64,000 nt of DNA from Tepidisphaeraceae bacterium (lineage in GTDB: Bacteria; Planctomycetota; Phycisphaerae; Tepidisphaerales; Tepidisphaeraceae), in contig DASYHQ010000018.1 in the NCBI GenBank assembly GCA_035998445.1, forward strand, positions 124,001-188,000, read 5' to 3'. The position numbers and the translations under genes were made by a program. Shown piece by piece: positions 8,203 through 56,520 of the stretch; position 1 is the first letter of the stretch, and each line of letters opens with the position of its first letter. Below the pieces are notes generated by a model. It did not search any database. It saw only the letters and a list, made by a program, of their open reading frames with translations, and had not been told where the DNA came from.

Positions 8203-8664
8203 TGCCCGAGCAAAATCGAATTTTGCCCGGGGAAGGTTGCGTTGTACCCGGGGAAGATTCGATTTGCCCCGGGGACAATTGCATTGTACCCGGGGACAAT
8301 GCCGTTGGACCCGGGGACAATTGCATTGTACCCGGGGACAATGCCGTTGGACCCGGGGACAATGCCGTTGGACCCGGGAACAATGCCGTTGGACCCGGGG
8401 ACAATGCCGTTGGACCCGGGGACAATGCCGTTGGACCCGGGGACAATTCCGTTGGACCCGAGGACAATGCCGTTGGACCCGGGGACAATGCCGTTGGACC
8501 CGGGGACAATGCCGTTGGACCCGGGGACAATGCCGTTGGACCCGGGGACAATGCCGTTGGACCCGGGGACAATGCCGTGGGACCCGGGGACAATTCCGTT
8601 GGACCCGGGGACAATTCCGTTGGACCCGGGGACGATCCAACTTTTCTCGGGGAGAACCGGACTT
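8203..8664. repeat. Tandem array 1: 22 units of 21 bp
   Basis: Units share the core CCCGGGGACAAT followed by a more variable GCCGTTGGA-type half. From 8203 to 8664 the period is exactly 21 bp with no insertion or deletion. The central units (about 8340-8640) are nearly identical, while the outer ones drift (GCCCGAGCAAAAT at the left, CTCGGGGAGAACC at the right) but stay in register. It lies between the hydrolase start and the phosphatase gene. The 21-bp period keeps several frames open by default, so the long open frames here are not evidence of coding. Confidence 0.95.
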
Positions 8665-30263: not shown

Positions 30264-30938
30264 CTACGCCGCGATCGTCCGCGTCTGCGCCGCAATCAGC
30301 TTCGCCATCCCCGGCGTCACGCCGAAGCTGACGTTGTGCTGCACCCAGTCGCCGGCCTTGCGCGACCGCACCGCCCGCACGTGGTACGTCACGCTCGCCA
30401 CCCCCGCCGGCAGCGTGGTGTCGTGGAACCGCTTGGTCCCCACCACGCCCAGGAAGACGCGCTCGGTGCCGAACCCACCGCTGCGCCATACCTCGTACAT
30501 GGTGCCACGCGCCCCGCGCGGGTTGTCGCACGCCCACTTTAATAGTCCCGTTCCGATGCCGTTGAGGACGAACGTGAAGCGAACTGGTATCCCCGGCGGC
30601 GGCAACGGCGATGCGGCATCGCGGACGCTTAGTCCCAGTTTGATCCGCGTGGAGTCGCTTACGGCTGCGTTGCCCGCGATCACCTTCGCCAGCGCCGATG
30701 CCATCTGCCGGACGAACTTTTCCGCGCTGTTCTTCGTCGTCACCTCAGCAACAGTGCGGTTGTTCCGATTGCTCGTCGCCTGATACGCCGCCTGCCACTC
30801 TGCATCGGCCGCCACGTAAGCCGCCGCTGCTGCTTCGGGTAAACCGTACTCGGCCCACGACGCGCTGATCTTCTCCGCAAACGCCCGCGAGCCAATCGCC
30901 AACTCCGCTTCCGTGCCCGTGAAAAAGCTCTTGCTCAT
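30264..30938 (-). CDS. Helical plus FN3-like protein P1, preceded by tandem array 2
   Basis: 224 aa. The N-terminal half is helical (FFTGTEAELAIGSRAF ... EYGLPEAAAA ... NRTVAEVTTKNSAEKFVRQM ... NAAVSDSTRIKLGLSVRD). After a proline linker (ASPLPPPG) comes a fibronectin-III-like beta domain (GTMYEVWRSGGFG, TTLPAGVASVTYHVRAVRS). Same order and spacing as the protein at 55831-56520. There is no signal peptide. I have seen similar hypothetical proteins in planctomycetes and other phyla but know no function. The ATG is 138 bp from array 2. Confidence 0.8.
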   Translation of the reverse strand: MSKSFFTGTEAELAIGSRAFAEKISASWAEYGLPEAAAAAYVAADAEWQAAYQATSNRNNRTVAEVTTKNSAEKFVRQMASALAKVIAGNAAVSDSTRIKLGLSVRDAASPLPPPGIPVRFTFVLNGIGTGLLKWACDNPRGARGTMYEVWRSGGFGTERVFLGVVGTKRFHDTTLPAGVASVTYHVRAVRSRKAGDWVQHNVSFGVTPGMAKLIAAQTRTIAA

Positions 30939-54378: not shown

Positions 54379-54470
54379 AAAGGGGTCGGGAGTCTTTAAT
54401 GAGAACAAAGACTCCCGACCCCTTATCTTTCGCCGACCCCTTATCTTTCGACCCCTTATCTTTCTCCCAC
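54379..54470. repeat. REP-like hairpin and AGGGGTCG repeats
   Basis: A perfect 18-bp stem, AAGGGGTCGGGAGTCTTT with its complement after an 11-base loop, is followed by two further CGACCCCTTATCTTTC words. Similar AAGGGGTCGGGAGTC-type hairpins are known as substrates of REP-associated Y1 transposases; no such transposase is in the window. A related AAAAGGGGGACATCACTG word is at 54590. Confidence 0.7.
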
Positions 54471-54620
54471 AGGCATTATCTAGAATGGCTTCGCCCATCA
54501 GCGGTTTAGAAGAGGCGCTGTCCCAAATCACCACAAGCGATTCTGGTACCCCATTGTAGTCGATGCCGGCGGAGCAGAAAAGGGAGCAGAAAAGGGGGAC
54601 ATCACTGATTAAACTGTGGC

Positions 54621-54958
54621 GGGTGGCATGGCCTTCGGATGTGGGTGCCATGGCCACGCGGGGGGCCGGTGCCGGAGCGTCGGATGGGTGTCCCGCGTGG
54701 CCATGTCGTCGGGCCTTATCGCAGACATGGCCACGCTCGAACCGCCCCGGTGGGTGGACGCGATTCGTCGGCGTGGCCATGGCACCCGCGCGGGTGGCAT
54801 GGCCTTCGGGTGTGGGTGTCATGGCCACGCGGGGGGCCGGGGCGGGAGCATCTGATGGGCGCTCCGCGTGGCCATGTCGTCGGGCCTTATCGCAGACATG
54901 GCCACGCTCGAACCGCCCCGGGGGGATGGACGCGATTCGTCGGCGTGGCCATGGCACC
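54621..54958. repeat. Two-copy tandem duplication of 169 bp
   Basis: 54621-54789 and 54790-54958 match over most of their length (GTGGCATGGCCTTCGG...ATGGCCACGC, GCGTGGCCATGTCGTCGG, TGGACGCGATTCGTCGGCGT). Each copy also contains many CATGGCCA half-palindromes. The two-copy state and small differences show a fairly recent duplication. No coding frame is shared and conserved. Confidence 0.85.
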
Positions 54959-55117
54959 CGCGCCACATCGTCGTTGGCCCGCTCGGTGCCAGGGGTCGCG
55001 GGACGCCGGGACCTGTGATTGCGGTAGTGCCGAAAGCACAGGTCTGCGAACACGCCGACCCGTGGCACCCGGCATCCAGAAAATCAAAGATGGATGCGAG
55101 CAAACAAAGGTCGACGC

Positions 55118-55777
55118 GGCGGATCAGGGCGGGACGAACCGGATATAGGACGAGCGGTCCGGAGAAGCGCTCCACGTGCCGAATAGGAACCGGGCGCGCC
55201 GAACGAGATTCGGACCTGCGGGATAAACGCAGGACGCGGCGGATGAGATCCGGCCGCGTCGTGTAATAGCCGGGCGCGCCGGATGATATTTGGACATGCC
55301 GGAAGATATTTGCGGCCGCCGGAAGATATTTGGCCGCGCCGGAAGATATTTGCGCCCGCCGGAAGATATTTGGTCGCGCCGGAAGATATCTGCGCCCGCC
55401 GGAAGATATTTGGACGCGCCGGAAGATATCTGCGCCCGCCGGATGATATTTGGCCGCGCCGGAAGATATCTGCGGCCGTCGGAAGATATTTGGTCGCGCC
55501 GGATGATATTTGCGCCCGCCGGATGATATTTGGTCGCGCCGGACGATATCTCCGCTCGCCGGAAGATCTTTGGACGCGCCGGAAGATACTCGGACGCGGC
55601 GGATAATAACGGGCCGCGCCGGATGAAATACGGAGGTGGCGGATAATAACGGGGCGGGCCGGGTGATCGTTGGGCGCGGCGGGTGAGATTGGAGGGGGCG
55701 GGATGATTTTCGCAGCGGTCGGGATCAAGTCGGCGCGGTGGCGGGTCGATAGGACGCGTGGAGCCGGGCGTTTGAGC
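55118..55777. repeat. Tandem array 3: 33 units of 20 bp
   Basis: Core unit GCCGGAAGATATTTGGCCGC; 16 units at 55278-55597 are close to it (GCCGGA(A/T)GATAT(T/C)T(G/C)...), and outer units are degenerate but stay on a strict 20-bp grid without indels from 55118 to 55777. Unit ends alternate between TGG-type and TGC-type, hinting at a 40-bp super-period in the centre. The array ends 54 bp before the start of P2. Confidence 0.95.
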
Positions 55778-55830
55778 GGCACGGGGAACGTGGGCGAGCG
55801 GCCGCGATAATCGCGGCGAAAAGGCTTTTT

Positions 55831-56520
55831 ATGCAGATGATCTTCAGGTTCCCGCGGCGCGATGGTGATCTGTTGCCGTTTCTACTGCACTTTCATCAGC
55901 AGGTCGCGGCGGAGCGCGAGGCGCTAGGGGTATCTGAGGCAGAGGTGGCTGAGTTGGCGGCCCGTGTCGCGCGGTTCGAGGCGGCCCTGCTGAAGTGCGA
56001 GCCGGCGGTCCGCAGCAAGGCCGCGGTCATCAACAAGGAAGAGGCCGGCGCGGCGGCCAGGACGTTCGCACATTCTGTGGCGATATCGATCGCCATGCGG
56101 AACTATGTTTCAGCACCGCAAAAGCAGGCGCTGAACATCCGGCCGCGCAAGCCGCACACGCGCAGCCACCGCCCCACCGAGCGTCCCGTTGTGACCATCG
56201 CGGCTTGCGCGGAGCGCTCGATCGAGCTGCGCCTTGGCGCCGGCCCTTCGACCGTGGCTGGCGCTGCATCGGTGCTCGTCTTCACGTTCGTGGGCAAAAA
56301 CTATCCCGCCGACGCGTCGCTCTGGCAGTTTTGCAAAGGGCTGCGCCGCCCGCGATGCCGCATCGACTTTCCCGACAATCTGCCGCCCGGCGTGCAGGTG
56401 TGGGTGTGCGCGGCCTACTGCTCACGCCGCGGCGAGCGGGGCGAGATGAGCTTGCCGGTGACGACGAACCTGCAGATGGGCGGCGTGGGCCGCGCGACGA
56501 CGTACCTCTCGGCGGCGTGA
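55831..56520 (+). CDS. Helical plus FN3-like protein P2, preceded by tandem array 3
   Basis: 229 aa. The same architecture as the protein at 30264-30938: an N-terminal FPRRDGDLLPFLLHFHQQVA and helical half with EALGVSEAEVAEL, AVINKEEAGAAARTFAHS and MRNYVSAPQKQALNIRPR. After a Pro/Arg linker comes a beta domain with SVLVFTFVGKNYP and NLPPGVQVWVCAAYCSRRGERG. There is no signal peptide. Identity to P1 looks low, but order, spacing and several words correspond. Function unknown; the shared upstream array architecture is the main clue. Confidence 0.8.
   Translation: MQMIFRFPRRDGDLLPFLLHFHQQVAAEREALGVSEAEVAELAARVARFEAALLKCEPAVRSKAAVINKEEAGAAARTFAHSVAISIAMRNYVSAPQKQALNIRPRKPHTRSHRPTERPVVTIAACAERSIELRLGAGPSTVAGAASVLVFTFVGKNYPADASLWQFCKGLRRPRCRIDFPDNLPPGVQVWVCAAYCSRRGERGEMSLPVTTNLQMGGVGRATTYLSAA

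Follow-up and report, generated by a model that had tools for sequence, protein, structure and literature searches.

Genes of an unnamed protein family, here called P, are associated across phyla with upstream tandem DNA arrays whose unit sequence is private to each gene, whose units are spaced 20 to 22 bp apart, most of which consist of dyadic units, and some of which recur as satellites at distant loci. The explanation that we favor, while placing it somewhat short of even, is that these are orthogonal modules in which each P dimer binds its own phased sites, autoregulates, and acts at its satellites, the binding itself being inferred. The broader claim, that they form an undescribed cross-phylum class of modules, in which one cell has tens of mutually orthogonal proteins and each of these reads its own two-turn-phased array, links home locus and satellites, and co-diversifies with its site, is a possibility that we put forward only tentatively.

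The relevant features of the window (the whole 64,000-nucleotide stretch of DNA that was analyzed) are as follows:

8240 to 8633, forward strand: array 1, a nearly homogeneous satellite of the 21-bp unit GGACAATGCCGTTGGACCCGG with no P gene nearby
30264 to 30938, reverse strand: P1, 224 amino acids, a paralogue with a type B, FN3-like C-terminal domain, ending in -TIAA
31070 to 31275, reverse strand: array 2, the P1 home array, about 10 units of 21 bp with core AAACGGTCGACCGTTT
55158 to 55717, forward strand: array 3, the P2 home array, about 28 in-register 20-bp units with core CCGGAWGATATYTGG
55718 to 55830, forward strand: leader from array 3 to the P2 start, the part to about 55804 being common to a satellite at C18:81 kb
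55831 to 56520, forward strand: P2, 229 amino acids, with a helical bundle (residues 11 to 100), an FN3 domain (112 to 217), and a disordered C-terminal tail, ending in -SAA

The P2 locus and its product

Array 3 runs on a 20-bp grid without indels, and TRF reports a period of 20 over 55272 to 55603 together with higher orders of 40 and 80 bp. A unit-by-unit register test with a matrix of the core identified an unbroken run of 28 units (55158 to 55717), each at p < 0.01 and each scoring best in register. The test is circular for the central units because the matrix was derived from them, and its independent part consists of the flanking units at 55158 to 55277 and 55598 to 55717. Units at 55098 to 55157 are marginal, and those beyond 55718 are not significant. 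The middle of the array is homogeneous (CCGGAAGATATTTGG core), and the edges have diverged (e.g., CGGATGAGATCCG). The first-pass annotation had placed 33 units at 55118 to 55777, ending 54 bp before P2; the 20-bp register and the upstream position stand, but the count falls to about 28 to 30 units and the gap to the P2 ATG (55831) is about 113 bp, the earlier figures having been slightly overstated because the left units are marginal and those past 55718 are not significant. That annotation had also described arrays 2 and 3 as unrelated in sequence and alike in geometry. Comparison bears out the former, and the common upstream placement holds, but array 2 consists of 21-bp units and array 3 of 20-bp units, and the two therefore differ in period as well as in sequence.

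Other repeats surround the locus. Directly left of array 3, positions 54619 to 54963 hold a two-copy 171-bp direct repeat (GGTGGCATGGCC...GCCATGGCCACGCG), pieces related to which adjoin orphan arrays elsewhere; it is a dispersed element in its own right. Short CGACCCCTTATCTTT repeats occupy 54413 to 54464, and resembling GACCCCTTATC repeats adjoin the P loci L009 and L012.

P2 had been described as a helical plus FN3 protein, which an AlphaFold2 model and a structure search corroborate. The model (mean pLDDT of 89 from a 19-row alignment) has helices at residues 11 to 27, 36 to 55, 63 to 89, and 95 to 100, a beta domain at 121 to 213, and a disordered tail with pLDDT < 50, and residues 111 to 218 match FN3 domains with Z of about 11 to 12 and rmsd of 2.0 to 2.7 over 91 to 106 aligned residues among the top matches. 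The N-domain modeled alone gave a confident helical bundle, for which the structure search recovered no convincing relative (best Z of 8.4, to de novo bundles); this missing match is no proof of a new fold, and a Rep winged-helix fold is not excluded. No known DNA-binding fold was recognized in P by the N-domain structure search, the remainder of the protein being FN3. C-terminal domains of the host copies are of type A (P2-like) or type B (P1-like, FN3-like), and P proteins are only mildly positive in charge (median pI of 9.2), with some acidic copies.

P2 has no match in Pfam, NCBIfam, or PHROGs, P0001 and P0003 have none in Pfam, and a scan of 43 members returned a single weak DUF5583 match; across Pfam, NCBIfam, PHROGs, and PADLOC there was no relevant match to the family, only isolated weak matches to single members. 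Transketolase and ABC-transporter identities were rejected as resting on single weak or spurious matches, and literature searches found no description of the family.

The C terminus is distinctive in the host, where 22 of 23 P copies end in -AA, compared to 3.7% of the genes predicted; the longer motif [KR][IVLM]AA terminates 10 of 23 copies, compared to 4 of 1280 genes. The host tmRNA tag, ANNDVAGRVGFAAPVRMAA, ends in -VRMAA, and the tags of twelve relatives end in -RMAA, -RLAA, -ALAA, -AIAA, or -AMAA, with one in -MAV. ClpXP degrons have Ala-Ala at the C terminus as their key element (PMC7652416), and the motif renders at least one regulator unstable (PMC7142297); host P copies have the sequence feature expected of an ssrA-like ClpXP substrate, with Ala-Ala on a disordered, accessible tail (pLDDT < 50). 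P is like sigma-AntA and the ssrA tag in its conserved C-terminal Ala-Ala, but its degradation is only inferred, and the Bacteroidota copies have no -AA tail, many of them ending in -SPV (G461) or in -IIP or -IVP (G298). The degron reading is thus confined to Planctomycetota. Most full-length P proteins of G461 (L341 to L350) end in -SPV, as if this were a lineage-specific C-terminal motif.

Arrays upstream of P genes

Protein and profile searches of the 5.84-Mb host genome (64 contigs; Phycisphaerales in our analysis) recovered 22 P genes that are intact, along with fragments and pseudogenes, and nearly every P gene has a private array of 20-, 21-, or 22-bp units upstream. An autocorrelation test (z ≥ 7, periods of 19 to 23, 1 kb upstream) detected a 20- to 22-bp array within 1 kb upstream of 19 of 23 P copies but of only 22 of 1196 other host genes (Fisher p = 7e-27; odds ratio of about 250). 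The control genes were predicted over about 2 Mb of the same genome by a GC3-based ORF picker, not taken from curated annotation, and most of the 22 positives among them adjoin orphan arrays. Arrays end a median of 213 bp before the ATG. The first-pass annotation had proposed an array-plus-protein module, not chance, and had named as refutation a genome-wide lack of upstream enrichment at P genes over other genes; this survey supports the module and found strong enrichment instead.

Nine host P genes (L041, L042, L044, L046, L049, L050, L055, L056, and L057 in G000) have in common a 3' hairpin, GGCGCGGCC-N4-GGCGCGCC, located 34 to 57 bp past the stop codon; in the 2 Mb read, well-formed copies of it are restricted to P modules, apart from one at a gene-less satellite. 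At L060 (G000 C5:135.8 kb), a P pseudogene retains its 20-bp upstream array and has a 30-bp tandem repeat coding for (RPVHRSPSLT)n in place of the C-terminal domain.

P genes were present in 15 of 41 genomes in a search of relatives and in 81 of the 298 class genomes sampled; one 3.4-Mb genome has 40 copies, the maximum. Related loci occur in Phycisphaerales MAGs, a Prevotellaceae MAG, viral contigs, and a MAG labeled Vicinamibacteraceae that is possibly misbinned. Upstream sequence was usable for 136 copies, of which 70 have an array there at z ≥ 7, compared to 3 of 400 background tiles, and downstream flanks have one at any period in only 5 of 136 (z ≥ 7). Of the 70 arrays, 64 have a period of 21 bp, 4 of 20 bp, and 1 each of 22 and 27 bp. 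Outside the host genome, in other Phycisphaerae, 50 of 113 copies are array positive; no array is detectable at roughly half of the copies in genomes other than the host's, and this absence clusters on the protein tree.

Bacteroidota genomes chosen by protein homology only provided an independent check. In G461, the best period is 21 bp (z ≥ 6) in 9 of 11 P copies; the z threshold was not calibrated on AT-rich background, and the recovery of 21 as the best of 17 periods tested in 9 of 11 copies is informative in itself. G473 has a 21-bp array of 13 copies, and G298 has units such as CAAGATTTCATGAAATGAGAC. Copies on phage contigs have diverged arrays, with GGA-N6-TCC dyads every 21 bp and unconserved spacers in L108. 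P modules on the IMG/VR contigs L108 (9 to 870) and L109 (4700 to 4990) are placed like morons on phage-like contigs, one beside a truncated helicase ORF and one directly after a capsid-type ORF. No P homologue was found in a public phage collection queried with a phage-contig copy or in a plasmid collection queried with the Prevotellaceae copy.

Dyad symmetry exceeds column-shuffled controls at p < 0.05 in 48 of 69 arrays and at p < 0.01 in 36 of 69, and conservation along the unit is uneven (median dispersion of 1.5; p = 3e-9 for the P2 array). The 16-bp dyad of the P1 core is near perfect; the P2 array is not significantly dyadic overall (p = 0.17), and edge units such as the one given above are dyadic. 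From a period of about two B-DNA turns across unrelated units and phyla, we infer that the arrays are double-stranded DNA sites read in phase. A coding-frame effect (21 = 3 × 7) was rejected because arrays of 20 and 22 bp exist.

We placed these periods on a quick maximum-likelihood tree of P with SH-aLRT support only. The 20-bp copies L043 (P2), L040, and L060 form one clade (support of 99) despite mutually unrelated units, the 22-bp copy L044 falls near that clade, and L051 represents a second origin of the 20-bp period. Period and array presence both cluster on the tree beyond all shuffles (0 of 500 as tight), and array spacing tracks protein phylogeny, not unit sequence. Units are unrelated even between proteins with 64 to 66% identity (L042/L046 and L071/L082), and at 75 to 88% identity the unit is conserved in only 3 of 6 pairs; the geometry is therefore old and the turnover of sequence quick. 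Pairs with changed units revealed no single hot domain as the seat of specificity, and the idea of domain-restricted divergence was dropped.

Satellite arrays and the reading of the modules

Genome-wide pattern searches placed the P2 unit in three arrays (home, C18:80.9-81.3 kb, and C26:247.1-247.6 kb) and the P1 unit in four (home and three satellites), and the unit of array 1 is that of two arrays upstream of a P gene at C28:12.65-13.33 kb, a third paralogue on another contig. The first-pass annotation was right about home arrays but missed such satellites with the same units elsewhere. In the stretches read, 15 of 22 orphan arrays match one home unit (p ≤ 0.0066), or about 10 of 17 if orphans found by unit search are left out, and the four orphans with a 20-bp period all match P genes of that period. 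The remaining orphans have no match, in what is a draft assembly. Orphan arrays are intergenic, with varied neighbors (Rrf2, DnaJ, AAA, MatE, Y1_Tnp, and others), and satellites are not restricted to promoters, one lying between convergent genes. The neighbors of array 1 are an alpha/beta-hydrolase gene on one side and, on the other, a divergent PocR/GAF/SpoIIE-domain gene. L278 (G000 C18:611863-612130), an orphan 21-bp array by a Y1_Tnp (IS200-like) gene, is the sole such case seen.

At C18:81 kb, the satellite array aligns at its right end with the P2 leader to about 55804 (86% over 81 bp), and 280 bp further on lies the 3' hairpin, with no gene between; this satellite, at least, therefore looks like a module minus its gene. 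Most satellites have only the array in common, without shared ends or an insertion signature. Module duplication through long homologous flanks was discarded, as these flanks were mostly dispersed-repeat noise and the leader was common to the C18:81 kb satellite alone.

If P proteins bind these sites, a module would comprise one P gene and a private upstream array of mostly dyadic sites two B-DNA turns apart, recognized by its own P protein as a dimer, an inference for which there are no binding data. Dimers lined up on a single face of the DNA would control their own expression, and P would act in trans at the satellites, where it would serve as a regulator or else clamp those loci into a cluster. 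The protein would probably be short-lived through ClpXP and its -AA tail (degradation likewise being inferred), and protein and unit, by changing quickly together, would keep the many modules of one cell free of cross-talk. Comparisons at the sequence level lend binding by P indirect support, in that the period tracks P phylogeny and satellites match the units of individual P genes. Its main weakness is the lack of a recognized DNA-binding fold, followed by the absence of arrays at half of the copies in other genomes. Also counting against the model are the only mildly positive charge, the unrelated units of closely similar proteins with no single hot domain, the satellites outside promoters, the P2 array's lack of significant overall dyad symmetry, and the missing -AA tail in Bacteroidota.

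The missing fold favors an alternative in which another dimeric protein or host machinery binds the arrays and sets P expression, while P does not bind DNA and perhaps has a structural role or is an FN3 protein resembling adhesins or virion proteins. FN3 domains are typical of extracellular or virion proteins, and the modules on phage-like contigs are consistent with such a role, and we consider this alternative unlikely but worth keeping in view: if one host factor served all arrays, it would read a single sequence, yet units are private to each paralogue, the period and presence of arrays track P phylogeny, and satellites match the units of individual P genes. We also regard as unlikely a selfish system of the REP/RAYT kind, in which modules and arrays spread and duplicate, P helps arrays to replicate or spread, and orphans are copies, or relics of modules that have lost their gene. 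Dispersed intergenic satellites, the leader and hairpin kept without a gene at C18:81 kb, a patchy distribution (81 of 298 genomes) reaching 40 copies in a genome, the presence of modules on phage-like contigs, including one by a truncated helicase ORF, and the orphan array beside a Y1_Tnp gene would all fit, but the P members scanned match no transposase or nuclease family, each unit has few arrays and not hundreds, and most satellites have neither common ends nor an insertion signature.

Transcribed arrays might instead work as RNA, with a long 5' leader that folds into hairpins in tandem and regulates P or other transcripts, as palindromic units able to fold and the median of 213 bp to the ATG would permit; hairpins, however, give no cause for a cross-phylum period of 20 to 22 bp, equal to two B-DNA turns, and the dyads often have no loop, making this improbable. 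Least credible, to the point of being nearly negligible, are neutral slippage minisatellites that lie upstream by coincidence. A homogeneous center with diverged edges is typical of slippage and unequal exchange, but the enrichment at P genes, the fixed period, the dyads, the phylogenetic tracking, and the recurrence across phyla all speak against neutrality, and the enrichment, period, and dyad tests rule out chance or generic minisatellites.

A large unnamed family, present in 81 of the 298 sampled genomes of its class as well as in Bacteroidota and on phage-like contigs, is thus tied to private, helically phased arrays. If P proteins read these arrays, one bacterium would contain dozens of orthogonal protein/site pairs made by nature, its array-binding proteins being mutually orthogonal and possibly resting on an FN3/helical scaffold unknown for DNA binding, and the family would be a natural experiment in which specificity changes while spacing stays. 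If they do not, some other maker of dyadic 21-bp repeats beside one family must exist, which is equally unexplained. The satellites allow a role in regulation, chromosome organization, or genomic conflict to be tested directly.

Relation to known systems

In the RAYT/REP system, each gene has short palindromes private to it, one genome contains several such pairs that are mutually orthogonal, gene and palindromes diverge fast together, and the palindromes are dispersed between genes (PMC2817692). P likewise has private palindromes dispersed in the genome, 15 of 22 orphans matching a home unit. The differences are that RAYTs are HUH transposases whereas the P members scanned have no Y1_Tnp match, although a true Y1_Tnp neighbor gene is easily found; that REPs flank the RAYT gene on both sides whereas P arrays lie upstream (70 of 136) and seldom downstream (5 of 136); and that REPs occur singly or in pairs, by tens to hundreds, whereas P sites form strict 20- to 22-bp tandem arrays. 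Identity of P with a RAYT or transposase was rejected for want of an HUH (Y1_Tnp) domain and of two-sided flanks.

Iteron plasmid origins have iterons of about 17 to 22 bp, private in sequence and in helical phase, beside the gene for the presumed binding protein. P arrays resemble them as direct repeats of about two turns (20 to 22 bp) within 1 kb of the gene, but iterons belong to replicon origins, while P modules are chromosomal, number up to 40 per genome, and have distant satellites; the P members scanned have no Rep winged-helix or other Pfam Rep match. In the parS/ParB and ParR/parC systems, palindromic sites at several chromosomal loci are read by one protein with possible bridging. 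The palindromic sites of P also lie at several chromosomal loci, but its arrays are tandem and phased, with one private set per paralogue, and P has no ParA/ParB Pfam match. By analogy, then, RAYT/REP pairs appear closest to the P modules in logic and iteron modules closest in array geometry, with P seemingly a member of neither.
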